From assembly GCA_947650365.1 (NCBI GenBank), contig OX393551.1, forward strand, positions 6,377,501-6,441,500: DNA of 64,000 bases, in the 5' to 3' direction. The position numbers and the translations under genes were made by a program. This DNA is from Chamaelirium japonicum (Eukaryota > Streptophyta > Magnoliopsida > Liliales > Melanthiaceae). Below are positions 21,501 through 56,039 of this stretch, piece by piece (the first letter of the stretch is position 1; every line of letters begins with the position of its first letter). A model generated the notes under the pieces. It was not told the DNA's origin. It saw nothing but the letters and a program-made list of their open reading frames with translations, and did no database searches.

Positions 21501-24500
21501 TCTCTGTCTGGTGGTCGTGGTCTACCTGGTGGTCATGGCACTAGTGGTCCTCCCGGTCCTTGTACCTATTGTGGCAAGCAGTTTCATGATCGCTCCCGAT
21601 GTTACCAGCTGTTCCCACATCTGCGTACTACCCCTCCACCTGCTCCTCGTTCACCGACTGTGGCTGCTGCAGACATCTCTAGTTCGTCCACATCTCCTTC
21701 TCCGACTTCTGGAGTTTTGGATTTCAGTCAGATGGTCTCCCAGGTGCAACAACTGATGAGCCAGCTTCAGCATCTTCAGCCTTCGTCTTCTCAGCCCTCA
21801 GCGTCCACTGCTTCCTCATCAGGTACTTCGTTCGCTTTCCAAGCATCCGGGGTTGATCCCAGTTCTTCACCCTGGGTGATCGACTCTGGTGCTACTGACC
21901 ACATGACTGGTGAGCTTCGTCTTCTTTCCCATATTGAGCCTTATCGTCAGCAAAATGTGCGCCTTGCTGATGGTTCCGTTACACCGATCCTTAGCAAGGG
22001 TACTGTCCCTCTTTCTTCTGCTGTTAGTCTTGACTCTGTCTTGCATGTTCCTAAACTGTCCCTTAATTTGCTATCATGAACAAGAAGAAATTAAAAAAGT
22101 TGTGTTAGTGTGTGATACACTGAAGTTGCCAAAGAGAAGTCCGATGGAAACTTATGTAAACCATATAATTTAATGAACGTATTTACATACTAAATACATT
22201 TCTATCAACCATGATGAATTGTAGGTTTAATAACATATGTAGAATGTGTAATATGCACATTACATTCAAGTAATATTTTTTAGCCTTTAAAACTCATATT
22301 AGTTGGATCCTAGATGAGACACAAAATGAAAGTTCTACCAAAACAATGTCTTATTAGTTACTACAAGTTTAAACTTAAGTGTTCTCAATGTCCTGTGTTA
22401 TGACAAGTCATTTTCTTATTGAATGTCCGATTGCATTAGAGTCTCAAGACATGTGTATCAGATGCATTTTATGAACCATCCAAATCAAGCAATGTATATC
22501 AATCCACAATTTGTAATTATTAGAATCCTGAATCCATATCGGAAATGTGCTCCCTTGTTATTGGTAACTTGTTTCGTTTTAACTGGAATCATATCTCTAA
22601 AACTTTTTTTCCTAAAAAATGTAGATTACATTTCCAGAGTGGATACACTGGGTGATGTGCAAGCTTCCTGCGGTTAGGGGAACAGTGACTAGAAGTTCTA
22701 TAAATCGCCTAGCTTTATCTCCCCTTTCCTATCTAAAGTTAGCAACTTAGGAGCTAAATTTTCCCTTAGAACCTCTCCACTCTTAATCCTAGTTATACTT
22801 TAGGTACAAGAACCTCCAAGCTTAAGAACTATGGATAACTACGAGAAAGCCACAAGCACCTAGCTTAAGCCCTCTATAATGTAATTCTATAACAAGGATC
22901 AAGAATTCGGGTTCGGATTCGGTCCGGTCAAAAAATGAACCTATTCAGGTTTGGACTTGGGTTTGGGTTGAAGAAGCTATCTGCAAACCCTTTGCAAAAC
23001 ATATTTGAAAGAAATATTTTACGTTGTTAGTCTAGCTTTTGCAGCAAAAACAATTGTAGAGGTGCACTGCTACTGCACTCAACTCCTTTCCAGAGAACTA
23101 AAGGATTAACCCATCTTTCATTTGGGATAACTTTGCTACAGTGCCAATTTACCCACCAAACTCACCTTAGTTCCCTCAACACTAGCCTTGAATTTTCTCA
23201 TGAGAACAGGTGACACCGAACATCATTGGGCCAACCCACAAGGTATCTAATTGACCCATCAATTAGTCCATTAGTTAATTTATTTCCCCTTGTTATTCTG
23301 TAACTAATGTATTCATTGTGTGCTACTAAATCGAGTCATGTATTTTACATCATCTAGGTGCATTATTATTTTTATTTAATGGAGAGAGAATGTTTGTTAG
23401 GTCAATTACCAAGTACTTTTGCAAGTTTACAAATAAAAAATATCTAGCAATGGCATGAGATATACATATGGATGAATGAAATATTCTACAGTGAACTATC
23501 TAGTGGTGAATAGTGGATACCACCAATTGATCTTCTTTTTTACTTGGGGGAATGTGTGAGCGATCCTTGACAAATATATCAGTTAAGTTGAAGTCCTCTA
23601 AATTGATGTGAATGAAAATACCCTCCATATCAATTCAAAATTTTAAAACGATACCATCGGTTCTCAATGCCAGATCTACTCGCCTCCGGTTTGGTCGCCA
23701 CCGCCGGAGCCCCATCTCCTTTTCCCTCCTCATCTATCCTCACCAACGGTGGCTGCCATTGGGCTGGGGTGCGATGCACAGGTCAGCAGTGACGGCTGCC
23801 AGGCTGGAGTGTGATGCACGGGCCGAAGCCCCACCTCCTCCTTTCTTACCGGCGGTGGCTGCCGTCAGGCTAGGGTGCGATGCACCAGTCGACGGTGGCT
23901 GCCGTCAGGTTGGGGTGCGATGCACGAGCTGGAGTCCCACCTCCTCCCTCCTCATCGGTGGTGACTGCCGTCGGACTAGGGTGCGATGCACCGGTCGGCG
24001 GTGGCTGCCGTCAGGCTGGGGGGCAATGCACCAGCCAGAGCCCCGCTGCCTCCAGCCGCCTCCCCAATCTCCGGCCACCCGAGGACCTGTCGCACCCCCG
24101 CTTGCCCGATCTCCTACCACCGCTGCCTCCAGCGACCACCGCGCTCGAGAGAGAAGGGAGAAGGAGAGGCTACGCGCAATTTTGGGTTTCTAAAGAAAAT
24201 GAGAAACTTTTCGTAAAATGAAATGTCTAGTTGTCATGCACCTTGACATTTGTTATGTTAGGGATTGATTACCAATTAACCTTTTTTACTTCCTCACCGA
24301 AAATGTGAGATTGTCACCCTATGGTCCCATGTCAAGGAGCCTCAAGATCCAACTTGACATCCATTTTCCATCCATCCTCGCTCACCCATTTTTTTCACAT
24401 CTATAACCATGGCAATCTGGTCCTATGGGTCAGGTTAACACCCCATGCTATAAACAATTCCAACTTACCTTAACCACTACTCAACAACACCACTTACTTA

Positions 24501-27500
24501 ATCATATGCTCATCTTCAGACGAGCAGGTTTCTGACCAACATTGTTTATCATTCACACCAACTAGAATCACAACTACATTAAAGAAAAAAGTGTTAGCAG
24601 TCCTTATATATAAAGCTACAAAGTTAAACAATTTCTTCTCAGATATATCTAAACTGTTTGCAGCCTGGTTAAACCCAAAAGCATGCATATGATCAGTTGC
24701 AAAGTAGCACTAACTACCATATGCAGTGAGCTAAACCTAATTAAGACTTACTATGAGGTGCTAGAATGAATAAAATTAAGATGCTTCTCTTTAATACTAT
24801 TATCCTCCAGAATTATAGTTATTAACATACTAAGATTGTCAGCATCACAAGCAACCATGGAATGAAACTTACATGCTGCATCTAGGTTTATAAGATGTTA
24901 TGAGCTGTAAAACATACACATTACCTCATGTTCTTTCAGCTTCTTGTCTAGCTCTGCAAAATTTTCCTCGGAATCGTACTGACCTGAATGATAGAAGCAT
25001 CTTTTTAGAAACTCATCCATCTTTTCACTACAGTTCTCCCTGAAACATAGTAACAACACACAGTATCAGTGGAAGAAATTGAATATAACTTGCACATCAT
25101 GTAACAACCCAACATAAGCATAACAACTTCAAAACAAGTAGAGGACAAGTGCAAAATCATGTTCTCCAAGGACCCTTTGAAAAGCAGAAAACAAAATATA
25201 GGTGAGATAAGAGTCATGATAACCTTTTATCGATTCTGCATGTAAGCGTACTGCTGACCATATCTCGCAATTCAGCATCTGTCATCTTACTCCGAGCATA
25301 GCCAAAAATTGTAAAATGCTGCAAAAAAATATCTACACATTTTTAAGATATAAAAACAATTATTTTTACCGAACATTAATAGTGACTCCTTATATGAGAT
25401 TTAATTGAATTTACCTTTGGAAGGCAATCTTCGTAGTAAAGAGCAAATAACGCAGGAAATATCTTCTTCTTAGCAAGGTCTCCAGATGCTCCAACAACAG
25501 TGATACTAACTGTAGACTCCTTGCTAGTGTCACCTGCTATATCTTGATATTCCTCCAAAGAGATAGTTGGTAATGCACCATTTTCAACGTTTTCCTTTGG
25601 AATTTCTTTTGTAGAAGGCACAGGTACAAATGCACTTGCTATGCCAAGACCAATATAAACATTTAAGCCCAGCATATGAATCAATACAAATCTTTATTAC
25701 TTGATAGGTAACCATAATGCAGAACAAAAATCAATATACGGATAAAAGCATGGCGACTAAAGATAACTTTTGCCATTTAAGCAAATGGTGAAGGGTGAAG
25801 AGAAAAAAGATTCAAACATTAAGAAAAGAAGTTTAAACAGATGAAACAAAATAAAAAATCTTAACTAAAGAGAATGTTGTTACGCTTCAGTTCTTTGTCA
25901 GTTTGGCTTATAATTTGTGCCATAGAGATGAATGCAATTCGCTATATCAAATCTTGACTCCCAACCTCATCATCTAGGCTCTTTCCTAAAGTGTTGATCC
26001 CTGGTTGCCTGAGCTTAAATTGCATAATCAACAAGGTAGGTCTCCCTACCCAAATAACCAACAACTGTAGTGTGCGTGTTGTCAAAGAATCAAAGACTCA
26101 AATAAATTACAAGTTTTTGTAAATAAGCTTTTCTACGAATAAAAAGTGCCATTTTGAGTTTTTGGACATGCTTTAGGATTTTCTGCACACGCTAAGGTTT
26201 AAGGTATTGAAAAATCTGATGCCTACAAAGGCACTTGCACCGGATACCCGGTCTGAGTTCATATAACATTGGGCACAGAATCCACTGATGAGGAACAAGT
26301 GAGAAAAAAATGTGCCTTTTAGCTCTGAAATTAAAGCAAACCAATAATTTCTCCTAATAGGCTACGGTGCAAGGTCAATGGTGGGGGTAAAACATTAGCT
26401 ATCAACTCATTTCGTCTCATGCAGCATTTCAGGGGTTACACTTGAGCAATCCAAAGCAATGACTGCCCCAAGTTTTGGATAACAAGTAAAATCATTAAAA
26501 AGTCGACGAATGGACGAGGACTCGGAGATCAGGGAAGGTCTTAATTTACAAACTTTTTTGGGCAAATTCGGTATAGGTCCTTAACTATTTTGCAATATTA
26601 GCTGCAGGACATACTAATTTGCTATATTAGCTAAGGTCCCTGCCCTCTTCTCCTCCACTCTCCCGAGCAGCTCCGACGGAGGCGACCTCGCGCTCGACCC
26701 CGACCACCCCATCGACCCTTAGAGCAGCTCCAGCGACGAAGGCAGCGGCTACAACAGTGGGGGCAGCGGCCAGCAGCTCCGGTGTCTGCGGAGACAGAAG
26801 CGGCGAGCAACAGGGGAAGCGGCGGTGGCGAGGTGGTTCAGTTGAGCTCCCTAGGTCTGGGGTTCATCCCATGGCCTGTAGATTAGGGGTGTATGTGTGT
26901 GTGTGTGTGGGGGGGGGGGGGGTTCGGTTAGGTCTGACAGCAGCGAGGGGGGGTTCGGTTAGGTTCGGCGGTCATGGGGAGGGGGGGCGGGGGTTCAGTT
27001 AGGTCCAGCGGCGGGGGAGGGGGGGGGGGGGGGGGTGTTCGGTTACGTCCGGTGGCGGGGGAGGGGGGGCGAGGGGTTCGGTTAGGTTTGGCGGTGGCGG
27101 GGGAGCGGGGGGCGGCGGTGAGGGAGGGGGGCGGGGGTTCGGTTTGGTCCGGCGGCGGCAACAGGGGAGGGGGGGAGGCGGGGGAAGGGGGCAGGGGTTT
27201 GGTTAGGTCCGGCAGCGACAGCGGCGGCGGGGGGGGGCAGTCGGGAGGGACTTGAGCTATATTTCAAAATTAGTTTGTCATGCAGCTAAAAGTCATCTCT
27301 CAAGGACTTATGTCAAAGTTCAGTTTTTTTTTTTTGGGTATGCTTTGGTCCTGATTAGTATCATCCCAATTGAGCACAGCCACACTACATCAACCAAAAA
27401 CTATAGAATCCCAAGCCAAATTTAAGCGACTCGGACAATTTCATTATGAATGGTTCTAATTATGGTGATTCAAGTAAGTGTGTGCATGACATGATGCACC

Positions 27501-29161: not shown

Positions 29162-31245
29162 TGTAATGCCCCGGTATTTTACGGATTTAGGCAACCCGTA
29201 TAACACTGGGGTGTTAGAAGTAAAACTTGATATTAAAATAATTTCCATGAAATATGGAAAACATTGGAGCCTCTTTTATTTATACCCATATATTATAGAT
29301 AAAAGTTTGATACATAGTTTGATATAAAAACTTAAACGTCCATCTAGAATCTTCTTACTTCACATCTCCGCTCCTGCATCCTCATAGTATGGAGTGTATA
29401 GCGGGTCCTTGATCCCCTCCGGTTCCTTCTCGTTGTGCGCTTTCTCTTCTTCATATCCTGTAAGGCCAGTCTCTGTAGAGGCCATAACACCTGTAAGGGG
29501 GTGACTCTAATCAACTGACTCACCTATTTAACCTAGTTCATTCATGGTAAGATGAATGTACTGAAAAAAATAGTTCACATGAATATGAATAGTAATTTAA
29601 AAGTTATTGATCACCCGATTCCCTTTTAGACTCAAACCAGGGTAGGAATCACAATCATACCCAGGGACTTTTTGTCTTATACAACGCTATCCCCACACCT
29701 AGGTTCTTTTAGTCACAAGACTAGGCTAGCCCCACACCAAGGTTTCTTTTTGGCCTCAGCCAGGGCTAGCCCCACACCCAGGTTCCTTTTTAGCCTCAGC
29801 CAGGGCTAGACCCACACCTAGGTTTCTTTTTGGCCCCCAAGCCAGTGCTAGCCCCACACCCGATTTAAATAACCAATACATCTTATAAATTAAACTAAAT
29901 CCATAGCACATTACCATTATTGCAACGACATATACTTATCAAGAGTCTACTAAGTTTAGTCCCCTACCTGAAGAGTTGGAGAATCTTTCTCTCGATGAAG
30001 ATGCCTTAGAAAGCTCACGACCTGAAATATATTTTTATCTTTTGTTAGTTTTACAAGGATTCGACAAAATCAAATTCCGATGTTAGATTCTTTATTTATT
30101 GCATTTTATCTTATAGGAGTATTTAGGTTATTTTTTAAAAATAGATTTGAAATTATACCCATGTTGTAGGGTTTTTTGTTATGAAAACGTGGCTGCAGAT
30201 GGAACTCAATTCGGAGTTCGTTTGCTCCCGATATGGCCAAACTAGTCGGTATTAACGGAAAATAAATGGTTGGTCTGCTCGTAGTAAAACGGTCAGGTTA
30301 CTCTAAACAATAGTGTTTCAGTTTAACTAATGGTAGAGTTGTTTTATCATAGTTGGTTCTTGGGCTTAATGGGCTTCGGTCCAAAAATGTTTAATGAGCT
30401 ACTGTGCTTAATGGGCTTCGGCCCAGAGGGTGTTTAATGGGCTTCGGCCTTAATATACTAATGGGCTTCAGCCCAATTTCCTAGTGGGCTTAAGCCCAGG
30501 AATTAAATAAAATTAATTTTCCTACCGAATATAGGGGTGGCCGGTGGGCCTTAGCGACAGTCCGGCGGCAGTCCGGCGGCGGCGAGCGGCGATCGGCGGT
30601 AGGTGACGACCGGCGGTGACTGCGGCGGTCCGGCGACGACCGGCAGGGGTCTGGCGGCAGCGGCGACCGACGACTGGCGGCGGGCTATGGGAGCGACGAC
30701 CGGCGGCAGCGACCGGCGGCGGGCGATGGAGGTGGTTGGGTGGCAGAGGGGGCTGGGTGGGATACGATTTTCGAGGCAAATGGGTTGAGTGCAGCACTTG
30801 GAGTTTTAGGGGGTTTTTATAGGCCTTTTTTCGGAATACCAAGAGTCTAGGGTCTTAATTGCAAATCGACTCATTATTGTATTGATTATTTCTGTTTTTA
30901 TCCGATCAGAATCCAAAGGTCTACGGTTGGCTGTCTTTTGGTCTCCCCCCCCACTATAAATATTTATTTACTAAAGTTTAGAATGAATAATTATAAGGGC
31001 TTTTTTGTTAGAGGGGGAAGATATAAAACTTTACCAATAGGTCCATAGTTCGAACCCTACTTGGCCATTTTTACTTTTATTTTTAAATGTTCTAAACATG
31101 CTTAAAACATAAAAGTTTGTATATGGTTTTTTATTGTTTCGATGAGCCGGATGCAATGACATAGTTCAATTTTTGTTTTTGAAATTTGTACATAAAATTC
31201 CTTATTATATTAGATTAAAATCATTAATATTTTTGGGATGTTATA
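29162..31245 (-). repeat. 3' LTR of the gypsy element
   Basis: Starts TGTAATGCCCC and ends GATGTTATA in window orientation; the expected TTACA has become TTATA. Inside are three to four tandem units of about 57 bp (GCTAGCCCCACACC...GGTTCCTTTTTGGCCT, about 29690-29860), repeats of GGGCTTAATGGGCTTCGGCCC (30360-30500), and a CGGCGG-rich block (30540-30725). A minus-strand TATAAAAA at 30814-30821 is the likely LTR promoter. A tRNA box-B-like AGTTCGAACCC lies at 31047-31057. Confidence 0.9.
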
Positions 31246-34879: not shown

Positions 34880-36985
34880 TGTAGCGCCCCAGTATTTTAC
34901 GGATTTAGGAAACCCGTATAACACTGGGGTGTTAGAAGTAAAACTTGATACTAAAAGAATTTTCATGAAATATGGAAAACATTGAAGCCTCTTTTATTTA
35001 TAACCATATATTATATATAAAAGTTTGATACATGGCTTGATATAAAAACTTAAACACTCATCTAGAATCTTCTTTCTTCACATCTCCGCTCCCGCATCCT
35101 CGTAGTATGGAGTATATAGCGGGTCCTCGATCCCCTCCGGTTCCTTCTCGTTGTGCACTTCCTCTTCTCTATATCCTATAGGGTCAGTCTCTGTAGAGAC
35201 CATAACACCTATAGGGGGGTGAGTCTAATCCACTGACTCACCTATTTAACCTAGTTCATTCATGGTAAGATAAATGTACTGAAGAAAATAGTTCACATAA
35301 ATATAAATAGTAATTTAAAAGTTATTGATCATCCGATTCCCTTTTAGGCTCAAACCAGGGTAGGAATCACAATCATACCCGGAGACTTTTTGTCTTATAT
35401 AAGGCTAGCCCCACACCTAAGTTTCTTTTTGGCCTCAACCAGGGCTAGCCCCACACACAGGTTCCTTTTTAGCCTCAGCCAGGGCTAGACCCACACCCAG
35501 GTTTCTTTTTGGCTCGCAAGCCAGGGCTAGCCCCATACCCGATTAAAATGACCAATACATCTTATAAATTAAACTAAATCCATAGCACATTACTATTATT
35601 TCAATGACATATACTTATCAAGAGTCTACTAGGTTTAGTCCCCTACCTGAAGAGTCGTGGAATCTTTTCTCCGATGAAGATGCCTTAGAAAGCTCATGAC
35701 CTGAAATATATTTTTATCTTTTGTTAGTTTTACAAGGATTCGACGGAATCAAATTCCGATGTTAGATTCTTTATTTATTGCATTTTATCTTATAGGGGTA
35801 TTTAGGTTATTTTTTTTAAATAGATTTGAAATTATACCCATGTTGTAGGGTTTTTCGTTCTGAAAACGTGGCCGTAGACGGAACTCAATTCGGAGTTCGT
35901 TTGCTTCCGATATGACCAAAATAGCCGGTATTGACGGATAATAAATGGTTGGTTTGCCCTTAGTAAAACGGTCAGGTTGCTCTAAACAATAGTGTTTCAG
36001 TTTAAATAATGGCAGAGTTGTTTTATCACAGTTGGTTACTGGGCTTAATGGGCTTCCGTCCAAAAGTGTTTAATGGGCTACTGTGCTTAACGGGCTTCGG
36101 CCCAGAGTGTGTTTAATGGGCTACTGTGCTTAATGGGCTTCGGCCCAGAGGGTGTTTAATGGGCTTCGGCCTTAAATATACTTAATGGGCTTCGGCCCAA
36201 TTTTCTAGTGGGCTTAAGCCTAGGAATTAAATAAAATTAATTTGCCTACCGAATATAGGGGTGGCTGGTGGGGCTTAGCGACGGTCGACGGCGGCGGTTC
36301 GGTGACGACCGGCGGCAGTCCGGCGACGGGTGGCGACTGCGGGGGTCCGGCGACGACCGACGGGGGTCCGGTGGCAGCGGCGACCGGAGACGGTCCGACG
36401 ACGGTCGGCGGCAGCGACGACCGGCGGCGGGCGGCAGCTGCGGCTGCGAAGGTGGCTGTGGGTAGTGGAGGTGGTTGGGTGGCAAAGGGGGCTGGGTGGG
36501 GCATGGTTTTCGAGGCAAATGGGTTGAGTGCAGCACTTGGAGTTTTAGGGGGTTTTTATAGGCCTTTTTCCTGAATACCAAGAGTCTTAATTGCAAATCG
36601 GCTCATTATTTTATTGATTATTTCCGTTTTGATCCTATCAGAATCCAAAGGTCTACGGTTGGCTTCCTTTTGGTCTCCCCCCCCCCCCCCCCACTACAAA
36701 TATTTATTTACTGAAGTTTAGAATGAATAATTAAAAGGGCTTTCTGGTTAGAGGGGGATGATATAAAACTTTGCCAATAGGTCCATAGTTCGAACCCTAC
36801 TTGGTCATTTTTTACTTTTATTTTTAAATGTTCTAAACATGCTTGTAACATAAAAGTTTGTATACATTTTTTGATCGTTTTGATGAGCCGGATGCAATGA
36901 CGCAGTCCGATTTTTATTTTAAAATTTGTACAAAAAATTTCTTATTATATTAGATTAAAATCATTAATATTTTTGGGATGTTACA
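34880..36985 (-). repeat. 5' LTR of the gypsy element
   Basis: Starts TGTAGCGCCCC and ends GATGTTACA in window orientation. It has the same internal blocks as the other LTR, with one extra GGGCTTAATGGGCTTCGGCCC unit (36040-36225). The minus-strand TATAAAAA at 36553-36560 is the likely start region for element transcription. The C-run at about 36678-36692 is longer than its partner. Confidence 0.9.
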
Positions 36986-40048: not shown

Positions 40049-40555
40049 GTGACATATCTTTCGGGGATAAAATCGCTTATGCTCTCTCAATTTCCGTTGG
40101 TCGAAGTTCTTTGCGGGAGTGAGGTTGCTGCAGTGACTCCATTCTTCCTTGCTGTTGACAGGAAGCATGTAAGCGGTATGAGACAGGCTAGAAGGAAGGT
40201 AAAGTGTAAAAGACGATCGGCTCCCTAAGGAGCGTGGACCCTTTGATGCCTAAGTCAACACTATATAAGAGAATGATGAGCTAATGATAGGAGAGTGCTA
40301 GGGTAGTAGGGGAGTCACAGTGATTTTTCAACCCCTTGAACAGTGCCCTGATTGAGCTTTTATAGGATCTCGGAAGGCAAGGACGTCAACACGTGGCAGT
40401 CAGGTGACGGTGTACAACTGCTGCAGAGGGTCACCTCTCGGGACATCCTGGAGGCTATCGAGTGTGGGCGGTATCATACTGCAGATCAGGTTGCCCGGAG
40501 AAACCGCACATGATGCTCAAGTGTTGGTGCAGAGATGTCACTACAAGAAAGAGGG

Positions 40556-41285
40556 GCTTTACCGACAGACATTTTTATCACCGTCGGTAATAATAACCTT
40601 TTTACCGACGGTGACAATAATATCCGTCGGTATTATAACTTCAATTTTTTAAATTTTTTTTGCACATTTATTACCGACGGTCAAATAGTATTCGTCGGTA
40701 CAATTATTTATACCGACGGTACATATATGTACCGTCGGTAATATACTTTATACCGACGGCTACATAAAGACCGTCGGTAAAATGTCACGACAGAACTCAG
40801 TGTAAAAACCAAGCCTCTGGGGAAAAATGGAATCCTGAGTTTCGTCGGAGATTATTACCGACGGACTTTATATTTCCGTCGGCATAAATAATTATACCGA
40901 CGGATATTATATGGCCGTCGGTACGATACCGACGGTAATTAAATATCCGTCGGTAAAATTGTCCCGACGAAACTCAGGGTAAAAACCGAGCCTCTGGAAA
41001 AAAATGAAACCCTGAGTTTCGTCGGCGGTTTGTACCGACGGACTAATTACTTCCGTCGGCATAACTAATTATACCGACGGCAATTATATGTCCGTCGGTA
41101 CAATACCGACGGTAATTAAATATCCGTCGGTAAAATTGTCCCGACGAAACTCAGGGTGAAAACCCGAGCCTCTGGAAAAAATGGAACCCTGAGTTTCGTC
41201 GCTGATTTTTACCGACGGACATTATTATACCGTCGGTATAAAGTAATTATACCGACGAAAATTATAGTTCCGTCGGTAAAAACTC
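40556..41285. repeat. CACTA-1 left subterminal repeats
   Basis: About two dozen ACCGACGG or CCGTCGG(T/C) octamers occur in both orientations, spaced roughly 10-35 bases. Many pairs form small hairpins. In En/Spm-type elements such subterminal repeats bind the TNPA/TNP1-type protein. Three larger hairpins are embedded, listed separately. Confidence 0.9.
40786..41201. repeat. Three 63-bp hairpins in the left subterminal region
   Basis: 40786-40848, 40963-41025 and about 41140-41201. Each has a left arm CCGACGAAACTCAGGGT, a loop around AAAAACCGAGCCTCTGG with an A run, and a right arm ACCCTGAGTTTCGTCGG. Copies 2 and 3 are near identical; copy 1 has several changes in its left arm. The copies are 177-178 bases apart. 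I did not find them at the right end. Confidence 0.85.
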
Positions 41286-41289
41286 CTTA

Positions 41290-41544
41290 CTTATCCACCC
41301 CAGCCTGCACCCTTTTCTTTTTGTGTTTCGACTCCGGCGCGCGCCCCTCTCTCAATCTCTCTCTCTCTCTCACCGACCCGACCCCCCGGCGACCCCGTCC
41401 CCCTCCGGCAGCCCCGCGATCCCCTCCGGCCACCCATCCCCCTCCCGGCCACCCATCCCCCTCCCGACCTCCGCCCCTCCCCGGCCTCCCGGCCCTCTTT
41501 CTCTCTCCCCGGCTTCCTCCCCCCCTCCCCGGCCTCCCTAGCCT

Positions 41545-41581
<37 letters not shown>

Positions 41582-41738
41582 CCTCCCCTCACCTGTCTCT
41601 CTCTCTCTCTCGATCTAAACCCCCCCTCCGGCCGGCCACCCATCCCCTCCCTTGCACCTCCGGCCACCCCTCCGCTTTCTCGCGCCACCAACTGCGACAC
41701 CCATCCTCCTCCTTCTCGAGGCCTACCGACCATCGCTG
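41290..41738 (+). other. Predicted 5'-UTR exon of the CACTA-1 gene
   Basis: C/T-rich leader with a CT microsatellite at 41548-41578. It ends ACCATCGCTG followed by GTGAGC (41739), a strong donor. The next good acceptor, TTGTTTCAG, ends at 43505, directly before the ATG at 43506. The 5' edge is a guess. The open frame across 41156-41800 is a low-complexity artefact. Confidence 0.5.
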
Positions 41739-41759
41739 GTGAGCTCCTCCTCCTCCTCC

Positions 41760-42176
41760 CTTTCCCCCTTCGGTTAATTTGTGGTAATATATTGTGGTAA
41801 TTTTTATTTAGGTAAAATCACAGGAATTAAATATAGTGTGGTATTGTGGTAATATATTGTAGTAATTTATTTAGGTAATATATTGTGGTAATTTTTATTA
41901 GGTAATTTATTGTGGTAGTTTTTATCTTGTGGTAATATATTGTGATTTACAACAATACCATAATTTGTGGTAATATATTTGTGGTAATATATTGTGGTTA
42001 ATTCCCTCATTTGGTAATTTTTACACTGTTTTAAAACTCGCCGAGTCGACTCGAAACTCGACCGAGTCGACTCGACTCGGTTGAGTTTCGATCCGACTCG
42101 GTCCAAAACTCGAGTTTCGATCCGACTCGGCTGAGTTTCGATCCGACTCGAGTTTTGTCGGGTTTTAGCCGAGTTG
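41760..42176. repeat. AT-rich and GAGTC-rich short repeats in intron 1
   Basis: 41790-42020: irregular repeats of GTGGTAATATATTGTGG. 42030-42170: repeats of CGAGTCGACTCGAAACTCG/TTTCGATCCGACTCGG. The phrase ATCACAGGAATTAAAT occurs here (about 41818) and again at about 51855 near the right end, in the same orientation. Confidence 0.7.
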
Positions 42177-43370
42177 TCGTGTTGGAATTATTCCGTATTT
42201 CGGACTTGCGAGCGGGTTCTAATTGGATATTTGACCAATTTACGCTCCGATTCACCGATTTAGAGTCTAAGTGTTGGAAAATCATAAGTTAGCGTGTTTT
42301 GGATATGAAATAGGTTTGGATTCGATCCGATCGTCATCGGATCGGCATCCGGTAATTCGAAGTTGGAATTATTCCGTATTTCGGACTTGCGAGCGGGTTC
42401 TAATTGGATATTTGACCAATTTACGCTCCGATTCACCGATTTAGAGTCTAAGTGTTGGAAAATCATAAGTTAGCGTGTTTCGGATATAAAATAGGTTTGG
42501 ATTCGATCCGATCGTCATCGGCTCGGCATCCGATAATTCGAACTTGGAATTATTCCGTATTTCGGACTTGCGAGCGGGTTCTAATTGGATATTTGACCAA
42601 TTTACGCTCCGATTCACCGATTTAGAGTCTAAGTGTTGGAAAATCATAAGTTAGCGTGTTTCGGATATGAAATAGGTTTGGATTCGATCCGATCGTCATC
42701 GGATCGGCATCCGGTAATTCGAACTTGGAATTATTCCGTATTTCGGACTTGCGAGCGGGTTCTAATTGGATATTTGACCAATTTACGCTCCGATTCACCG
42801 ATTTAGAGTCTAAGTGTTGGAAAATCATAAGTTAGCGTGTTTCGGATATAAAATAGGTTTGGATTCGATCCGATCGTCATCGGATCGGCATCCAATAATT
42901 CGAAGTTGGATTTATTCCGTATTTCGGACTTGCAAGCGGGTTCTAATTGGATATTTGACCAATTTACGCTCCGATTCACCGATTTAGAATCTAAGTGTTG
43001 GAAAATCATAAGTTAGCGTGTTTCGGATATGAAATAGGTTTGGATTCGATCCGATCGTCATCGGATCGGCATCCGGTAATTCGAAGTTGGAATTATTCCG
43101 TATTTCGGACTTGCGAGCGGGTTCTAATTGGATATTTGACCAATTTACGCTCCGATTCACCGATTTAGAGTCTAAGTGTTGGAAAATCATAAGTTAGCGT
43201 GTTTCGGATATAAAATAGGTTTGGATTCGATCCGATCGTCATCGGATCGGCATCCGATAATTCGAACTTGGAATTATATTCCGTATTTCGGACTTGCGAG
43301 CGGGTTCTAATTGGATATTTGACCACTTTACGATCCGATTAACCGATTTAGAGTCTAACTGTTTCATATT
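42177..43370 (-). repeat. 181-bp satellite, left array (about 6 units, minus orientation)
   Basis: On the minus strand, unit starts (ATGATTTTCCAACACTTAGA) fall at 43190, 43009, 42828, 42647, 42466 and 42285, exactly 181 apart, with partial units at both ends. Units are very alike, differing at a few positions (GATCC or GAGCC; TTTCATAT or TTTTATAT). The inner edge decays into TGTTTCATATGTAAATC repeats at 43370-43500. It lies wholly within the predicted first intron (41739-43505). Confidence 0.97.
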
Positions 43371-43505
43371 GCGAGCGGGTTCATATTGTTTTATATTGTT
43401 TCATATGTAAATCATACTGTTTCATATGTAAATCAAACTGTTTCATATTGTTTCATATGTAAATCTTAAATCTTACTGTTTCATATGTAAATTAAATTGT
43501 TTCAG

Positions 43506-45206
43506 ATGGCATCACGGTCATATGTTCGTAGAGGCAGAGGCAGAGGCAGGGGTGGGGTAGCTCAGAGCGCTCCGGCTGCCACCCCAGGGTCTGAGGCTGA
43601 GCCGTCCGGATCTGGTAGTGCTGTTCCTCTCTCCACACCAGCTCCTGCTGTGGTCGCAGCCTCCGGAGCTTCGAGCAGTGCTCAGCACTCGGCTGCAGCG
43701 TCTACGCCCACAGGTAATGTTTAGATCTAAAGTTTTATACATGTTGTAAATACTTCTTCAGTACTGATGTATATTTTATTTGCAGGGTCGACCAGGTACG
43801 TAGGCGATCGGGGCGTGACGACGGCCCGGCGCTTGTCGGCCTTACGCGAGCCGCTGTCCCTACAGTGGAGCGGCCATACCTTTGTGGGCGAGCACGCTTC
43901 TGACGCCGCCACGTGGGTCGGCATGATAGTACGGGAGGAGAGGAATGCCCCGATTGTGGGGTTAAGGGGGTGGAAGAACATTGATGCATCCTATAAGGAG
44001 AGGATGTATCAGTAGTTTTTGGTACGTTAGTTTCATTAAAGCATTTTAGAATAATATCGTACTTCTTTATAATTTGATTTGATAAAATGACTTGTTTCTA
44101 AATTGATTTTACAGGAGAAATTTAAATGGGTGAACATGGAAACCGACACCCATCGGGAGGACTTGTTGAAGACGATGGGTGAGCGGTATAGGGATTACCG
44201 TCACGAGCTCTACCAGCTCTACGGTTACTTGGTCGGCCAGCCGGCTGAGGAGGTACAGGCTGCGGCCGGGACGAGAGACGCGCCACCGCTGCACATTCTA
44301 CAGTTTTTGGTCGCTCACTGGGCCACCCCTAGCTTTCAGGTATAATTATAATTTTGTTGATTCGTACTTGTTTTAATGTTATACTAAAAATTTGTATTGA
44401 TGTTTCAAAATTTAATTGATTCACACAGAGGAAATCTGCTATAGGCAAGCAGAATAGAAGTGCCTCGACGACACCTGCTCCAGTGAAGGGGAGGACCTCC
44501 ATGCCCCAGCTTGCCCAGCAGCTGGTAAATGATACAAACATTGTTATTATTTAAAGCTCTATACATGTTATATTAACTCGACTATTTATTTTATATGTTC
44601 AACAGACACAGTCCTTGGGCCACGAGCCTAATAGGATTGACCTTTTTGAGGCCTCTAGGAGGCGGCGTATCGATGGGGCATTTCTGGATGACAGGGTTGC
44701 CTCGCAAGTGGTAAGTAATTAAATTACTGTTAATATATTCTTATACATATGCCATAAAATATCATTGAATATCATTGGTTGTTTTTATATAGGAGAGGAT
44801 GCGACTTATGGTGACCCCGTCGGGCGAGGCCGGCTCCTCCTCCAGCTCAGTATCTGTCGACTCAGCGATGGATACTGTGCTGAGACCTGCCACGCACGAC
44901 CGTGTCCTCTGTACGGGCCTAGGAGTCACGCCCTCCTCCTACTTTGGACGAGAGGGTATGCGCTCGAGGGCACGGGACACCCAGACCGGTGCTATCACTC
45001 AGCTGCAGTCTGCGCTAGACGCGGAGCGAGAGCAGAGGCAGGCCCTCGAGCAGAGGATGGAGGCGGAGCGAGAGCAGAGGCAAGCCCTCGAGCAGAGGGT
45101 TGAGGCGGAGAAGAAGGCCCTCGATGAGGAAAGAGAAGCTCGCAGGGAACTGGAGCGTAAATTTAATGAATTCATAAGCCGGTCTAGCGGTGGCTCATCC
45201 TCATGA
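43506..45206 (+). CDS. TNP1-like (Transposase_24-type) protein of CACTA-1, one in-frame stop
   Basis: Predicted DNA-binding accessory protein of a CACTA transposon. Exons: 43506-43713, 43786-44021, 44115-44339, 44429-44524, 44606-44710, 44793-45206. All introns are GT-AG and phases join; total 1284 nt (427 codons plus stop). Seen: an RGRGRGRGG N-terminus; a core with WVGMIVREERNAPIVGLRG and YRDYRHELYQLYGYL; GKQNRSASTTPAP; LGHEPNRIDLFE; and a C-terminal coiled coil with tandem EREQRQALEQRMEAEREQRQ heptads. This order matches plant Transposase_24 proteins and the exons of the related gene at 58503-60455. Exon 2 has one stop (MYQ-stop-FL, TAG at 44013-44015) where CAG would fit, so the copy is almost intact but probably not functional unless read through. 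Confidence 0.85.
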
Positions 45207-45210
45207 TCAG

Positions 45211-48200
45211 GTACTTACTAATCTTTATAATATTAGCAAAAAATATGAATCTTACTAATTTGAGTTTTGATCATATTATCACACTTATGATTTTTCAACA
45301 CTTAGACTATAAATCGGTAAATCGAATCGTAAATGGTCTCTCTCTCTCTCATGGTAATGATGTAGCCTCTGTTTTTCTTTTAAATACGGAATAATTCCAA
45401 CTTCGAATTACCGGATGCCGATCCGATGACGATCGGATCGAATCCAAACCTATTTCATATCCGAAACACGCTAACTTATGATTTTCCAACACTTAGACTC
45501 TAAATCGGTGAATCGGAGCGTAAATTGGTCAAATATCCAATTAGAACCCGCTCGCAAGTCCGAAATACAAAATAATTTCAAGTTCGAATTACCGGATGCC
45601 GAGCCGATGACGATCGGATCGAATCCAAACCTATTTCATATCCGAAACACGCTAACTTATGATTTTCCAACACTTAGACTCTAAATCGGTGAATCGGAGC
45701 GTAAATTGGTCAAATATCCAATTAGAACCCGCTCGCAAGTCCGAAATACGGAATAATTCCAACTTCGAATTACCGGATGCCGATCCGATGACGATCGGAT
45801 CGAATCCAAACCTATTTCATATCCGAAACACGCTAACTTATGATTTTCCAACACTTAGACTCTAAATCGGTGAATCGGAGCGTAAATTGGTCAAATATCC
45901 AATTAGAACCCGCTCGCAAGTCCGAAATACGGAATAAATCCAAGTTCGAATTATCGGATGCCGAGCCGATGACGATCGGATCGAATCCAAACCTATTTCA
46001 TATCCGAAACACGCTAACTTATGATTTTCCAACACTTAGACTCTAAATCGGTGAATCGGAGCGTAAATTGGTCAAATATCCAATTAGAACCCGCTCGCAA
46101 ATCCGAAATACGGAATAATTCCAAGTTTGAATTATCGGATGCCGAGCCGATGACGATCGGATCGAATCCAAACCTATTTTATATCCGAAACACGCTAACT
46201 TATGATTTTCCAACACTTAGACTCTAAATCGGTGAATCGGAGCGTAAATTGGTCAAATATCCAATTAGAACCCGCTCGCAAGTCCGAAATACGGAATAAT
46301 TCCAACTTCGAATTACCAGATGCCGAGCCGATGACGATCGGATCGAATCCAAACCTATTTTATATCCGAAACACGCTAACTTATGATTTTCCAACACTTA
46401 GACTCTAAATCGGTGAATCGGAGCATAAATTGGTCAAATATCCAATTAGAACCCGCTCGCAAGTCTGAAATACGGAATAATTCCAACTTCGAATTACCGG
46501 ATGCCGATCCGATGACGATCGGATCGAATCCAAACCTATTTCATATCCGAAACACGCTAACTTATGATTTTCCAACACTTAGACTATAAATCGGTGAATC
46601 GGAGCGTAAATTGGTCAAATATCCAATTAGAACCCGCTCGCAAGTCCGAAATACGGAATAATTCCAAGTTCGAATTATTGGATGCCGAGCCGATGACGAT
46701 CGGATTGAATCCAAACCTATTTTATATCCGAAACACGCTAACTTATGATTTTCCAACACTTAGACTCTAAATCGGTGAATCGGAGCGTAAATTGGTCAAA
46801 TATCCAATTAGAACCCGCTCGCAAGTCCGAAATACGGAATAATTCCAACTTCGAATTACCGGATGTCGATCCGATGACGATCGGATCGAATCCAAACCTA
46901 TTTCATATCCGAAACACGCTAACTTATGATTTTCCAACACTTAGACTCTAAATCGGTGAATCGGAGCGTAAATTGGTCAAATATCCAATTAGAACCCGCT
47001 CGCAAGTCCGAAATACGGAATAATTCCAACTTCGAATTACCGGATGCCGATCCGATGATGATCGGATCGAATCCAAACCTATTTCATATCCGAAACACGC
47101 TAACTTATGATTTTCCAACACTTAGACTCTAAATCGGTGAATCGGAGCGTAAATTGGTCAAATATCCAATTAGAACCCGCTCGCAAGTCCGAAATACGGA
47201 ATAATTCCAAGTTCGAATTATCGGATGCCGATCCGATGACGATCGGATCGAATCCAAACCTATTTCATATCCGAAACACGCTAACTTATGATTTTCCAAC
47301 ACTTAGACTCTAAATCGGTGAATCGGAGCGTAAATTGGTCAAATATCCAATTAGAACCCGCTCGCAAGTCCGAAATACGGAATAATTCCAAGTTCGAATT
47401 ATAGGATACCGATCCGATGACGATCGGATCGAATCCAAACCTATTTTATATCCGAAACACGCTAACTTATGATTTTCCAACACTTAGACTCTAAATCGGT
47501 GAATCGGAGCGTAAATTGGTCAAATATCCAATTAGAACCCGCTCGCAAGTCCGAAATACGGAATAATTCCAACTTCGAATTACCGGATGCCGATCCGATG
47601 ACGATCGGATCGAATCCAAACCTATTTCATATCCGAAACACGCTAACTTATGATTTTCCAACACTTAGACTCTAAATCGGTGAATCGGAGCGTAAATTGG
47701 TCAAATATCCAATTAGAACCCGCTCGCAAGTCCGAAATACGGAATAATTCCAACTTCGAATTACCGGATGCCGATCCGATGATGATCGGATCGAATCCAA
47801 TCCTATTTCATATCCGAAACACGCTAACTTATGATTTTCCAACACTTAGACTCTAAATCGGTGAATCGGAGCGTAAATTGGTCAAATATCCAATTAGAAC
47901 CCGCTCGCAAGTCCGAAATACGGAATAATTCCAACTTCGAATTACCGGATGCCGATCCGATGACGATCGGATCGAATCCAAACCTATTTCATATCCGAAA
48001 CACGCTAACTTATGATTTTCCAACACTTAGACTCTAAATCGGTGAATCGGAGCGTAAATTGGTCAAATATCCAATTAGAACCCGCTCGCAAGTCCGAAAT
48101 ACGGAATAATTCCAAGTTTGAATTATCGGATGCCGAGCCGATGACGATCGGATCGAATCCAAACCTATTTTATATCCGAAACACGCTAACTTATGATTTT

Positions 48201-51200
48201 CCAACACTTAGACTCTAAATCGGTGAATCGGAGCGTAAATTGGTCAAATATCCAATTAGAACCCGCTCGCAAGTCCGAAATACGGAATAATTCCAACTTC
48301 GAATTACCGGATGCCGATCCGATGACGATCGGATCGAATCCAAACCTATTTCATATCCGAAACACGCTAACTTATGATTTTCCAACACTTAGACTCTAAA
48401 TCGGTGAATCGGAGCGTAAATTGGTCAAATATCCAATTAGAACCCGCTCGCAAGTCCGAAATACGGAATAATTCCAAGTTCGAATTACCGGATGCCGATC
48501 CGATGACGATCGGATCGAATCCAAACCTATTTCATATCCGAAACACGCTAACTTATGATTTTCCAACACTTAGACTCTAAATCGGTGAATCAGAGCGTAA
48601 ATTGGTCAAATATCCAATTAGAACCCGCTCGCAAGTCCGAAATACGGAATAATTCCAACTTCGAATTACCGGATGTCGATCCGATGACGATCGGATCGAA
48701 TCCAAACCTATTTCATATCCGAAACACGCTAACTTATGATTTTCCAACACTTAGACTCTAAATCGGTGAATCGGAGCGTAAATTGGTCAAATATCCAATT
48801 AGAACCCGCTCGCAAGTCCGAAATACGGAATAATTCCAACTTTGAATTACCGGATGTCGAGCCGATGATGATCGGATCGAATCCAAACCTATTTCATATC
48901 CGTAACACGCTAACTTATGATTTTCCAACACTTAGACTCTAAATCGGTGAATCGGAGCGTAAATTGGTCAAATATCCAATTAGAACCCGCTCGCAAGTCC
49001 GAAATACGGAATAATTCCAAGTTCGAATTACCGGATGCCGATCCGATGACGATCGGATCGAATCCAAACCTATTTCATATCCGAAACACGCTAACTTATG
49101 ATTTTCCAATACTTAGACTCTAAATCGGTGAATCAGAGCGTAAATTGGTCAAATATCCAATTAGAACCCGCTCGCAAGTCCGAAATACGGAATAAATCCA
49201 AGTTCGAATTATCGGATGCCGATCCGATGACGATCGGATCGAATCCAAACCTATTTCATATCCGAAACACGCTAACTTATGATTTTCCAACACTTAGACT
49301 CTAAATCGGTGAATCGGAGCGTAAATTGGTCAAATATCCAATTAGAACCCGCTCGCAAGTCCGAAATTCGGAATAATTCCAAGTTCGAATTATCGAATGC
49401 CGAGCCGATGACGATCGGATCGAAGCCAAACCTATTTCATATCCGAAACACACTAACTTATGATTTTCCAACACTTAGACTCTAAATCGGTGAATCAGAG
49501 CGTAAATTGGTCAAATATCCAATTAGAACCCGCTCGCAAGTCCGAAATACGGAATAATTCCAAGTTCGAATTACCGGATGCCGATCCGATGACGATCGGA
49601 TTGAATCCAAACCTATTTCATATCCGAAACACGCTAACTTATGATTTTCCAACACTTAGACTCTAAATCGGTGAATCAGAGCGTAAATTGGTCAAATATC
49701 CAATTAGAACCCGCTCGCAAGTCCGAAATACGGAATAATTCCAAGTTCGAATTATCGAATGCTGAGCCGATGACGATCGGATCGAATCCAAACCTATTTC
49801 ATATCCGAAACACGCTAACTTATGATTTTCCAACACTTGACTCTAAATCGGTGAATCGGAGCGTAAATTGGTCAAATATCCAATTAGAACCCGCTCGCAA
49901 GTCCGAAATACGGAATAATTCCAAGTTCGAATTACCGGATGCCGAGCCGATGACGATCCGATCGAATCCAAACCTATTTCATATCCGAAACACGCTAACT
50001 TATGATTTTCCAACACTTAGACTCTAAATCGGTGAATCGGAGCGTAAATTGGTCAAATATCCAATTAGAACCCGCTCGCAAGTCCGAAATTCGGAATAAT
50101 TCCAAGTTCGAATTATCGAATGCCGATCCGATGACGATCGGATCGAATCCAAACCTATTTCATATCCGAAACACGCTAACTTATGATTTTCCAACACTTA
50201 GACTCTAAATCGGTGAATCAGAGCGTAAATTGGTCAAATATCCAATTAGAACCCGCTCGCAAGTCCGAAATACGAAATAATTCCAAGTTCGAATTATCGA
50301 ATGCCGAGCCGATGACGATCGGATCGAATCCAAACCTATTTCATATCCGAAACACGCTAACTTATGATTTTCCAACACTTAGACTCTAAATCGGTGAATC
50401 GGAGCGTAAATTGGTCAAATATCCAATTAGAACCCGCTCGCAAGTCCGAAATACGGAATAATTCCAAGTTCGAATTACCGGATGCCGAGCCGATGACGAT
50501 CCGATCGAATCCAAACCTATTTCATATCCGAAACACGCTAACTTATGATTTTCCAACACTTAGACTCTAAATCGGTGAATCGGAGCGTAAATTGGTCAAA
50601 TATCCAATTAGAACCCGCTCGCAAGTCCGAAATTCGGAATAATTCCAAGTTCGAATTATCGAATGCCGATCCGATGACGATCCGATCGAATCCAAACCTA
50701 GCTATTTCATATCCGAAATACGCTAAGTTATGATTTTTCAACACTTAGACTCTAAATCGGTGAATCGGAGCGTAAATTGGTCAAATATCCAATTAGAACC
50801 CGCTCGCAAGTCCGAAATACGGAATAATTCCAAGTTCGAATTATCGGATACCGAGCCGATGACGATCCGATCGAATCCAAACCTATTTTATATCCGAAAC
50901 ACGCTAACTTATGATTTTCCAACACTTAGACTCTAAATCGGTGAATCGGAGCGTAAATTGGTCAAATATCCAATTAGAACCCGCTCGCAAGTCCGAAATA
51001 CGGAATAATTCCAAGTTCGAATTATCGGATGCCGAGCCGATGACGATCCGATCGAATCCAAACCTATTTTATATCCGAAACACGCTAACTTATGATTTTC
51101 CAACACTTAGACTCTAAATCGGTGAATCGGAGCGTAAATTGGTCAAATATCCAATTAGAACCCACTCGCAAGTCCGAAATTCGGAATAATTCCAAGTTCG

Positions 51201-51527
51201 AATTATCGAATGCCGATCCGATGACGATCCGATCGAATCCAAACCTAGCTATTTCATATCCGAAACACGCTAAGTTATGATTTTTCAACACTTAGACTCT
51301 AAATAGGTGAATCGGAGCATAAATTGGTCAAATATCCAATTAGAACCCGCTCGCAAGTCCGAAATACGGAATAATTCCAAGTTCGAATTATCGGATGCCG
51401 ATAATTCTACGATCGGATCGAATCCAAACCTATTTCAAAATCGAAACACGCTAACTTATCATTTTTTAACGCTTAGACTCAGTTATAGATATAAACCATT
51501 TTTTTAACAAATACATGTTAATTGCAG
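45211..51527 (+). other. Predicted 3'-UTR intron of the CACTA-1 gene
   Basis: Four bases after the stop codon (45204-45206) comes CAG followed by GTACTTAC, a good donor. After the right array, TTTTTTTAAC...TTAATTGCAG ends at 51527, a good acceptor. The right satellite array lies entirely between them, so it would be spliced out. This is inference from splice signals only. Confidence 0.5.
45284..51480 (+). repeat. 181-bp satellite, right array (about 33 units, plus orientation)
   Basis: Unit starts run from 45478 to 51277 with a 181-base period, preceded by one degenerate unit (from 45284) that has a CT-rich insertion. Exceptions: the unit at 49822 has lost one A; two units (from 50545 and from 51092) carry an extra AGCT before TTTCATAT, giving 185 bases. 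Most units hold a CGATCCGAT-GACG-ATCGGATCG palindrome; variants start CGAGCC or have ATCCGATCG on the right. Units differ by only a few per cent by eye. Because 181 is not a multiple of three, the many 68-residue open frames here are not proteins. Confidence 0.98.
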
Positions 51528-51730
51528 GAGCAGGGCGGCGTCAGGGGATCGATGAGAGCACCAGCGTTGGTGGTGGGCGGGCGTGGTTGAGATAGGGCGG
51601 CGTCAGGGGATCGATGAGAGCACCGGCGTTGGTGGCGGGCGGGGGTGGTTGAGATAGGACATGTATCATCTCTCAGTTCTGGATTGTGTAAATATTATTT
51701 TGTAATATATGGTTATTTTTTGTTCTTGTC
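51528..51730 (+). other. Predicted last exon (3' UTR) of the CACTA-1 gene
   Basis: Begins GAGCAGGGCGGCGTCAGGGG after the acceptor. It holds a tandem duplication of about 60 bases (GGCGGCGTCAGGGGATCGAT at about 51535 and 51597). It ends in T-rich sequence with ATTTTGTAATATATGG, which could serve as a plant 3'-end region. Borders are uncertain. Confidence 0.4.
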
Positions 51731-51739
51731 TATAATTGT

Positions 51740-52448
51740 CGGCCGGGAACTGTGGTAATATTTGATAATTTGCTGTAATTTTTTATCAATTTAGGTAATA
51801 TTTTATAAATTGTGGTAATATTTGATAAATTGTGGTAATATATTGTGGTATTGAATCACAGGAATTAAATAACATTATTTAGGTAAATTTATTAAAAAAA
51901 AAAACATACTTATTATCGACGGAAATTAATTATTCCGTCGGTAATAATATTTTTATTTTTTTTAAATTATTAATGATTTGCCGACGGCATATAATATCCG
52001 TCGGTAATATATATATTATTACCGACGGGTAATATATATATCCGTCGGTAATATATATAGTATTACCGACGGTTATATGAATTTGGTCGGTAATATATAT
52101 ATTATTACCGACGGGTAATATATATATGTGTCGGTAATATATATAGTATTACCGACAGTATAAAATATACCCGTCGGTAAAATGGTTATATATTACCGAC
52201 GGATTCTTATATTTCGTCGGCAATACTAAATTATATTAGTTTTAAATTGATTAATTATTACCGACGGCGTTAATATTACCGTCGGTATTAATTATTATTA
52301 CCGAAGGTAATATTTGGTCCGTCGTATTGTTTTCCCCGACGCCTTCTTTCCCGACAGCAAGCGACGGAAATATCTTCCGTCGCTATAGAATATTACCGAC
52401 GAAATTTTAATATTACCGACGGATATTGTCCGTCGGTAATAACTGTTT
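51740..52448. repeat. CACTA-1 right subterminal repeats
   Basis: 51740-51900 repeats GTGGTAATATTTGATAA words, mirroring the AT-rich block near the left end. 51915-52445 carries about 20 ACCGACGG/CCGTCGG motifs, many as ATTACCGACGG...CCGTCGGTAATA hairpins, up to the terminal inverted repeat. Confidence 0.9.
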
Positions 52449-53146
52449 TTTTTGTAGTGTGTCTAGGTCAGAGTAGGGAGCCTCTATGAGTTGATCTCTA
52501 GTTAGTGCGCAGGGCATTAGCATTGTCTAGGAAGCCGATTGGTGGAGTCGAGCATGTTGCTCTCATTTGCCACATGTTGCGCTTCGATACTGGCATCAAC
52601 ATCTTTGTGTAAGCTTTGCAGGCGCGGCGCCTGGTACATGCCCTGCTGTTTGACACATGAGCAACACTAGGAAACAAACATGCTCTTGCAGTTTTGTGCC
52701 TTCCCATTCTCGTTTGGAAAAAATGCTAAGTGTTGCGTGATTTGGGAGGTTGTTGAGGGAGGAGCTAGGCACGTAGGGCCCGGAGGCGAATTCCCACATA
52801 AGGATTCCTCATTTGGGCTCGCTCCTACATACTACCTGACAACGTCATCATGACGTCGTACAGGCAAGCTCCCACCTCTCATGGGCGGGCAACCAGATGA
52901 CATCATCATAACGCGCTCGTACCTCTTTCAGGCGGGCTACCTGATGGCATCGGTCTGATGTTATTCATGAGGGCCTCCTTGGGGTGAGCTACACGTTATC
53001 CGGGTGGACTACTATCTTCTTGGGGCGAGCTACCATCTCCTCGTTCTTGTCTTAGGCCTTCTTTGACGTCCTCACCATCTTGCCACATGGGCGGCCTTCA
53101 TACGATCACGCAGATGATGAGCGGGTAACTTTTTTGGACACCAACA

Positions 53147-55759: not shown

Positions 55760-56035
55760 TGGCCGCTTAAATGTTTAAGCGGGGGTGTTGCCGTCGGATA
55801 TACCGGCCGCATTAGACTCCGTCGCAATTGGGTAGCCCCCGGAAATGGTGGTTTAAACGGCTAGTGTTTAGCCGCCGGAAATGGGGTTTTAAACGGCCGG
55901 TGTTTAGCCGCCGGAAATGGGGTTTGAAGCGGCTGGAGTTTAGCCGCCGGAAATGATGGTTTAAACGGCCGTTGTTAGCCGCCGGAAATGGTGGTCCAAA
56001 AGGTTGTTTGGCCGCCGGGAATTATGTGGTTTAAA
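55760..56035. repeat. CACTA-2 left subterminal repeats
   Basis: Five to six copies of TTTAGCCGCCGGAAATGG, each followed by GGTTTAAACGGCCG or a variant, with a period near 40 bases. GCCGCC and CGGCCG words give alternating orientation. Confidence 0.85.
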
Positions 56036-56039
56036 CAAA

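Follow-up and report, generated by a model that had tools for sequence, protein, structure and literature searches.

A CACTA element with two opposed satellite arrays

The window analysed here, a 64,000-nucleotide stretch of the Chamaelirium japonicum genome (assembly GCA_947650365.1, contig OX393551.1, positions 6,377,501 to 6,441,500), contains a CACTA transposon in which two arrays of one 181-bp satellite lie in opposite orientations on either side of a tnpA gene (Table 1). The element has intact ends and occupies positions 40539-52459 (11,921 bp), beginning with CACTACAAGAAA at 40539 and finishing with TTTTTTTTGTAGTG at 52459. A first-pass annotation of the DNA had described such an element with a TGT duplication, and we located its ends and both TGT copies; of the coordinates given there, the end was correct whereas the start (40538) lay one base early. 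The terminal inverted repeats with a 3-bp target site duplication, found in all seven family copies for which both ends are available, and a short subterminal motif (ACCGACGG/CCGTCGGT) repeated in both orientations place the element in the CACTA (En/Spm) superfamily. Its gene is of the TNPA/TNP1 type, the translation of one copy (C9b) matching PF03004 (plant transposase Ptta/En/Spm) with an E-value of 4e-16. The CACTA (En/Spm) family to which the window element belongs is a high-copy one with two genes, and this member of it has an internal deletion.

Together the two arrays make up 62% of the window copy, in line with the earlier estimate of more than half. The annotation had reported about six minus-strand units to the left of the gene and about 33 plus-strand units to its right; we count 6.5 and 33.7, and each array is the reverse complement of the other. 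The right array begins ~176 bp past the tnpA stop codon, behind a diverged partial unit. No Rfam family scored above its threshold within 40400-52600. The satellite consensus (for example the unit at 45563-45743) contains a 9-bp dyad with a 4-base loop; at one dyad site T and G are nearly even among right-array units (137/130), but T is found in 73/77 left units.

Inheritance of the arrays with the element family

The genome assembly (1.52 Gb in 3253 contigs) holds many relatives of the window element. The element 5' end gave 2169 first-look candidates, 40 of which were scored and are 97-100% identical, and the last tnpA exon gave 1554, the 40 scored being 99-100% identical; a 30-base word of this exon has 749 exact matches. 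From the 40 best tnpA-exon matches we chose ten copies, fetched 20 kb around each and compared them with the window copy, giving a gene-selected sample of eleven. Both arrays are present in 11/11 copies, the left inverted and the right direct, and every match between a left array and the right array of the same copy is on the minus strand. The array edges and their junctions are near-identical throughout this sample. Array length, by contrast, varies widely, from 17.3 to 49.3 units on the right and, on the left, through 0.8, 3.8, 6.4, 7.1, 7.2, 7.2, 9.2, 11.2, 12.2, 14.1 and 14.2 units. Unit types at the array ends tend to be conserved, and it is in the middles that unit number and order vary, as expected of internal growth and shrinkage.

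Seven copies, the window copy and six others, could be assessed at both ends, and they have seven different exact 3-bp duplications, indicating separate insertions; C9b was excluded because it has the 5' end but lacks an exact 3' end, as were C6, C1 and C2a because their 5' ends lie beyond the fetched stretch. These sequence comparisons show that both arrays are passed on as part of the element family.

Location of the arrays in the predicted transcription unit

The six-exon reading of tnpA gives a full 427-codon frame in 5/11 copies (C9b, C5, C4, C2a and C1; in C5 the donor after exon 5 is altered) and a shorter open frame in C7a. The frame is interrupted in the other five (C9a, C7b, C6, C2b and the window copy, where a premature stop falls within coding exon 2). 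A search with the TNPA protein returned none of 7995 scored candidates at E <= 0.001. The annotation's description of a single TNP1-like gene is apt for the window copy, with its PF03004-type gene, but not for the family, since 8/11 gene-selected copies retain a transposase region and only C5, C7b and the window copy lack it. In C7a, the one copy scanned, this region matches PF02992 (E 3.9e-102) as well as PF13963, PF13960 and PF13952, so that the family has a tnp2-type transposase gene which the window copy lacks.

In the eight copies that retain it, the transposase region lies within the predicted first tnpA intron; the deletion in the window copy fuses this intron directly to the interior of the left array. 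The C7a left array lies 176 bp past the transposase stop codon, ahead of the tnpA start. The right array is bracketed in 11/11 copies by a donor (CAG/GTACTT, the slash marking the splice junction) and an acceptor (TTGCAG/GAGCAGG). On the predicted splice model both arrays would thus lie within tnpA introns and in one primary transcript. A GTATGT following the transposase stop was considered as a splice donor and dropped, as it is not conserved in the subfamily termed B below, and we claim no separate intron there.

The 5'-most 2 kb of C9a, C4, C2a and C5 (L009/L010, L021/L022, L023/L024 and L019/L020) are only 77-88% identical to C7a or find no match in it, while nearly all windows from the transposase onward are 98-100% alike in C9a, C4 and C2a (C2a has one 95% window); C5 has no transposase and falls outside this second comparison. 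The sequences look as if different 5' ends had been joined onto one body.

Distribution of the satellite in the genome

Exact matches to a 28-base word of the 181-bp unit number 27,380 genome-wide, compared with none for a reversed-order control word, so the matches are not due to chance; they correspond to a satellite total of ~5 Mb. The eleven gene-selected copies contain 380 of these words, or 34.5 per element, and the genome-wide ratio of satellite to tnpA words is 36.6. Multiplying the 749 tnpA words by 34.5 predicts 25,875 satellite words, 94.5% of those observed, with the proviso that the calibration derives from copies chosen for a good tnpA match and that diverged copies lose either word. 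With figures this close, few arrays can lie outside elements, although several per cent of the satellite could still do so.

A satellite-selected sample, consisting of 2.5 kb beside each of six satellite clusters from one stretch of contig C1, leads to the same picture: all six places adjoin tnpA. Three of them (L030, L032 and L034) have both arrays by sequence, L033 has the right array by sequence and the left by word positions, and two (L029, here called B1, and L031, here called B2) have the right array only. The concern accompanying the first-pass annotation, that other copies might lack the arrays, is therefore borne out for the left array of two copies among the 17 in all; the right array is present in 17/17, and the left was seen by sequence in 14 and by word positions in one. 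Nine satellite clusters are listed over the first 5.28 Mb of contig C1. The exact tnpA word places six of them next to tnpA and sequence places a further two there; the ninth begins 3.6 kb after an element 5' end. An exact word at the left inner junction has 503 genome matches; on C1 it accompanies 36/82 tnpA words at a distance of 1.47-1.50 kb, and 36/56 junctions have a tnpA word, these counts being lower bounds because the exact word is missing at L033 and L032 although both have a left array. The exact-word list had also suggested copies devoid of one array, yet sequence revealed the array at L030, L032 with L037, L033 and L034; as array units there lack the exact word, its absence was not used as evidence that an array is absent.

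From the word counts, nearly all of the satellite appears to lie within elements, with a small free fraction possible, and its multiplication by transposition of the element is supported. The proposal that the element is a vehicle making or spreading satellite DNA thus holds as regards spread within elements. The stronger form, in which the element would make the satellite and seed free arrays elsewhere, for example at centromeres, could draw on the ~5 Mb spread over the genome and on matches, among the 40 scored, to 10 of the 12 contigs C1-C12 and several small contigs. Long arrays independent of a mobile element, the mark of a free satellite family, are however not what the word ratio (36.6 against 34.5) and the six tnpA-adjoining places describe, and the C1 clusters, with the ninth so close to an element end, agree with them; we regard such seeding as improbable.

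Subfamilies and the order of events

The sampled copies fall into subfamilies, one of which lacks the left array. B1 and B2 differ by 0.12% in tnpA, while B1 differs by 4.7% from C7a of the main group A; a further copy, D (L032), is 3.2% from C7a in tnpA and has both arrays. Between the transposase stop and the tnpA start, subfamily B has ~250 bp of 21-bp AT-rich repeats without any satellite match. In A and D the left array is embedded in just such an AT-rich stretch, with the same left boundary. Since subfamily B combines a right array with an empty AT-rich spacer, the left array looks like a later gain, and the simplest reading of these sequences is that the right array came first and the left was added in an ancestor of A and D.

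The junction of the right array also differs among the groups. In the 11 A copies a CT-rich insertion (45339-45381 in the window) splits the diverged partial unit from the right array; in B and D the partial unit passes directly into the array.

Exchange between the opposed arrays

A comparison of 436 units indicates that the two arrays of group A resemble each other. Left and right units of A are 97.6% identical, as against 95.9% for the left units of A and D, even though these occupy the same site. At unit column 29, C is carried by 60% of A-left and 52% of A-right units, whereas T is found in all seven D-left units, the one D-right unit and 24 B-right units (C in 0/32). The opposed arrays thus share subfamily-specific variants. 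The most direct evidence comes from C7a, in which three alleles private to its two arrays are aligned on one antidiagonal; in this register the arrays have 3 differences in 1262 bp (99.8%, an inverted tract), while other registers have no fewer than 42 per 1150 bp. On this pattern of alleles, the C7a tract is a clear case of inverted exchange inside one element.

Interpretation and alternatives

We propose, with a probability of roughly 0.7 for the explanation as a whole, that the window element is a CACTA deletion derivative whose family carries one satellite, in opposed orientation, in two non-coding stretches, and that the arrays are inherited, co-evolve and may fold into a hairpin. The host stretches would be the intron in the tnpA 3' untranslated region (UTR) and the spacer that separates the transposase stop codon from the start of tnpA. 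The left array would have arisen once, when template switching or ectopic repair placed an inverted copy of the satellite in the AT-rich spacer, and recombination would have made both arrays grow, shrink and convert each other. The arrays would be tolerated because splicing removes them, and would then have spread by transposition.

Transcripts that escape splicing would have different properties. A single unbroken alignment, at 96.5-98.5%, joins approximately the full length of the left array to its own right array in 10/11 copies, and in the eleventh (C7b) a left array of only 141 bp matches at 95.7%. If left unspliced, a transcript would thus be expected to fold into a hairpin with arms of up to 2.6 kb, closed by a predicted loop of 1.7-1.9 kb that contains the tnpA exons. 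A long inverted repeat within one predicted transcription unit is the arrangement of an inverted-repeat locus for small interfering RNAs (siRNAs). Long hairpin RNAs are substrates of Dicer-like enzymes in plants, so siRNAs against the satellite, and thus against every copy, are a likely effect; the hairpin would then be a probable source of family-wide silencing. Rice CACTA elements bearing miR820 reportedly carry a short microRNA hairpin that targets a host methyltransferase. The present family would resemble them in that a CACTA element carries sequence giving rise to hairpin RNA, and would differ in that the predicted hairpin is a kilobase-scale satellite structure without a known target.

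Several observations weigh against this interpretation. Unit identity is hardly greater within copies than between them (97.66% against 97.61%, 345 units), and the same holds for identical left and right units (3.2% in the same copy, 2.9% otherwise). Alleles private to a left and a right array number four in ten same-copy pairs, three of them in C7a, and eight in 100 different-copy pairs. The D-left units are no closer to their single D-right unit (95.1%) than to A-right units (95.8%), and a clear exchange tract is found in one copy only, C7a. When ordered strings of left and right units were compared, there was no consistent excess over shuffled strings except for C7a against itself, so that the comparison does not trace the left array, as an inverted copy, to any one stretch of the right arrays as they now stand. 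Left and right array lengths are not significantly correlated (rho 0.41, p 0.21, n = 11). The 11/11 figures come from a non-random sample, since its copies were taken from the best matches to the tnpA exon. Subfamily B is represented by two nearly identical copies and may instead have lost its left array, though such a loss would have had to leave no scar. Finally, splicing, the hairpin and the siRNAs are predictions of the sequence model.

How much the opposed orientation matters to the element can be judged in more than one way. The arrays might be a built-in hairpin module, in which pairing of unspliced transcripts feeds silencing or forces back-splicing of the tnpA exons into circles, and pairing of the flanking introns could indeed favour circular tnpA RNAs. 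With such a module, the output of the element would depend on how many copies exist and how efficiently they are spliced, and a nearly perfect stem would be maintained by gene conversion, in inverted orientation, from one arm to the other; we consider it a doubtful idea. The main alternative to a role in silencing or circularisation is functionless toleration, the arrays being spliced out. The repeats would then be neutral passengers that grew in two dispensable intronic stretches, their inversion, hairpin and pairing having no effect on the element. To this we give even odds. The arrays lie in predicted introns, their lengths vary widely without obvious constraint, one copy has a left array of only 141 bp, and opposite orientation by itself is an even chance; neutrality alone leaves the shared alleles and the exchange tract unexplained, although recombination without function would account for them.

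Two further explanations fare worse. The arrays might serve as a bank of additional sites to which TNPA binds and by which the transposition complex would be titrated or guided, as TNPA-type proteins bind repeated subterminal motifs (described for En/Spm in PMC2613891) and the 181-bp unit contains its 9-bp dyad. The motif ACCGACGG/CCGTCGGT, however, occurs 33 times in the element ends and not once in the unit, which makes this very unlikely. It is harder still to credit an assembler with having collapsed, expanded or mis-oriented the arrays: long arrays ~97% alike are difficult to assemble, but artefacts of this kind would not be expected to have the same orientation and near-identical junctions in 11/11 gene-selected copies, with different exact duplications in 7/7 testable ones and fetched sequences free of N.

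Relation to known satellite-bearing CACTA elements

The architecture of the family is largely that of maize En/Spm, in which the transposase is encoded within tnpA intron 1 and the 5.8-kb tnpD transcript also includes tnpA exons (PMC2613891). The CACTA ends, 3-bp duplication, transposase reading frame in the first tnpA intron and TNPA-type second gene are shared with it, while opposed satellite arrays in two introns are absent from En/Spm as described there. Closer in its repeats is the Chenopodium CACTA element Jozin, which, according to section 10 of PMC8978399, has 32.5 copies of a 171-bp unit near its 3' end. Jozin is likewise a CACTA element with a satellite array after the coding region, its satellite being found in several elements, but it has one 3'-end array of a different unit length, and an opposed second array is not described in that section. 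ENSAT1/Atenspm and CficCl-61-40 are also satellites tied to CACTA elements; both are listed in a table (PMC9659126), which places ENSAT1 in the 5' UTR, and CficCl-61-40, from Chenopodium, grows from a transposase fragment (PMC7320549). These too are satellites derived from or inside CACTA elements, and an opposed pair is unmentioned in that table and in the abstract of PMC7320549. Passages of two other articles, PMC4158355 and PMC4219821, have no bearing on opposed arrays.

Single satellite arrays in CACTA elements have thus been published, whereas an opposed, co-evolving pair around tnpA is apparently unreported: we found no report of such a pair among the open-licence papers listed in our searches, judged from titles and the openings of abstracts and, for the sources cited above, from passages of text. 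The family would allow the life of a satellite to be read stepwise, from an intronic array through an inverted second array elsewhere, with the empty site surviving in a sister subfamily, to exchange between the two. It bears on how satellites originate within transposons, on whether inverted arrays homogenise each other and on whether intronic hairpins limit transposon copy number.

Features of the window copy and other repeats

Table 1. Features of the CACTA element in window coordinates; a slash within a splice site marks the junction.
Feature	Position	Strand	Remarks
Target site duplication TGT, left	40536..40538		
5' terminal inverted repeat (CACTA) and subterminal repeats	40539..41280	+	ACCGACGG/CCGTCGGT motif, 21 times
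Predicted 5' UTR exon of tnpA, CT-rich	41281..41738	+	From sequence; start undefined; followed by GTGAGC donor, string in 9/11 copies
Predicted first intron of tnpA	41739..43505	+	Acceptor TTTCAG/ATGG in 11/11 copies
Left satellite array, 6.5 x 181 bp, opposed to right array	42181..43363	-	Tandem Repeats Finder, 97% matches
AT-rich 21-bp repeat spacer, left array to tnpA start	43364..43505	+	Spacer type that encloses the left array
tnpA gene, six predicted coding exons	43506..45206	+	GT-AG boundaries, 427 codons
tnpA coding exons	43506-43713, 43786-44021, 44115-44339, 44429-44524, 44606-44710, 44793-45206	+	
Predicted tnpA 3' UTR intron enclosing right array	45211..51528	+	Donor 4 nt past stop codon
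Diverged partial satellite unit ahead of right array	45283..45338	+	89.5% match
Right satellite array, 33.7 x 181 bp	45382..51480	+	Tandem Repeats Finder, 96% matches
Predicted 3' UTR of tnpA	51529..51900	+	From sequence; conserved in 11/11 copies; end undefined
3' subterminal repeats and terminal inverted repeat	51901..52459	+	ACCGACGG/CCGTCGGT motif, 12 times
Target site duplication TGT, right	52460..52462		

Outside the element, the window contains two pairs of related 40- to 43-bp tandem repeats with similar spacing, at 29686-29861 and 35403-35540 and at 30361-30454 and 36037-36165, which are perhaps two copies of another repeat element. Further tandem repeats, several of them very GC-rich, lie at 20296-20529, 23737-24044, 26947-27235 and 55833-56036.

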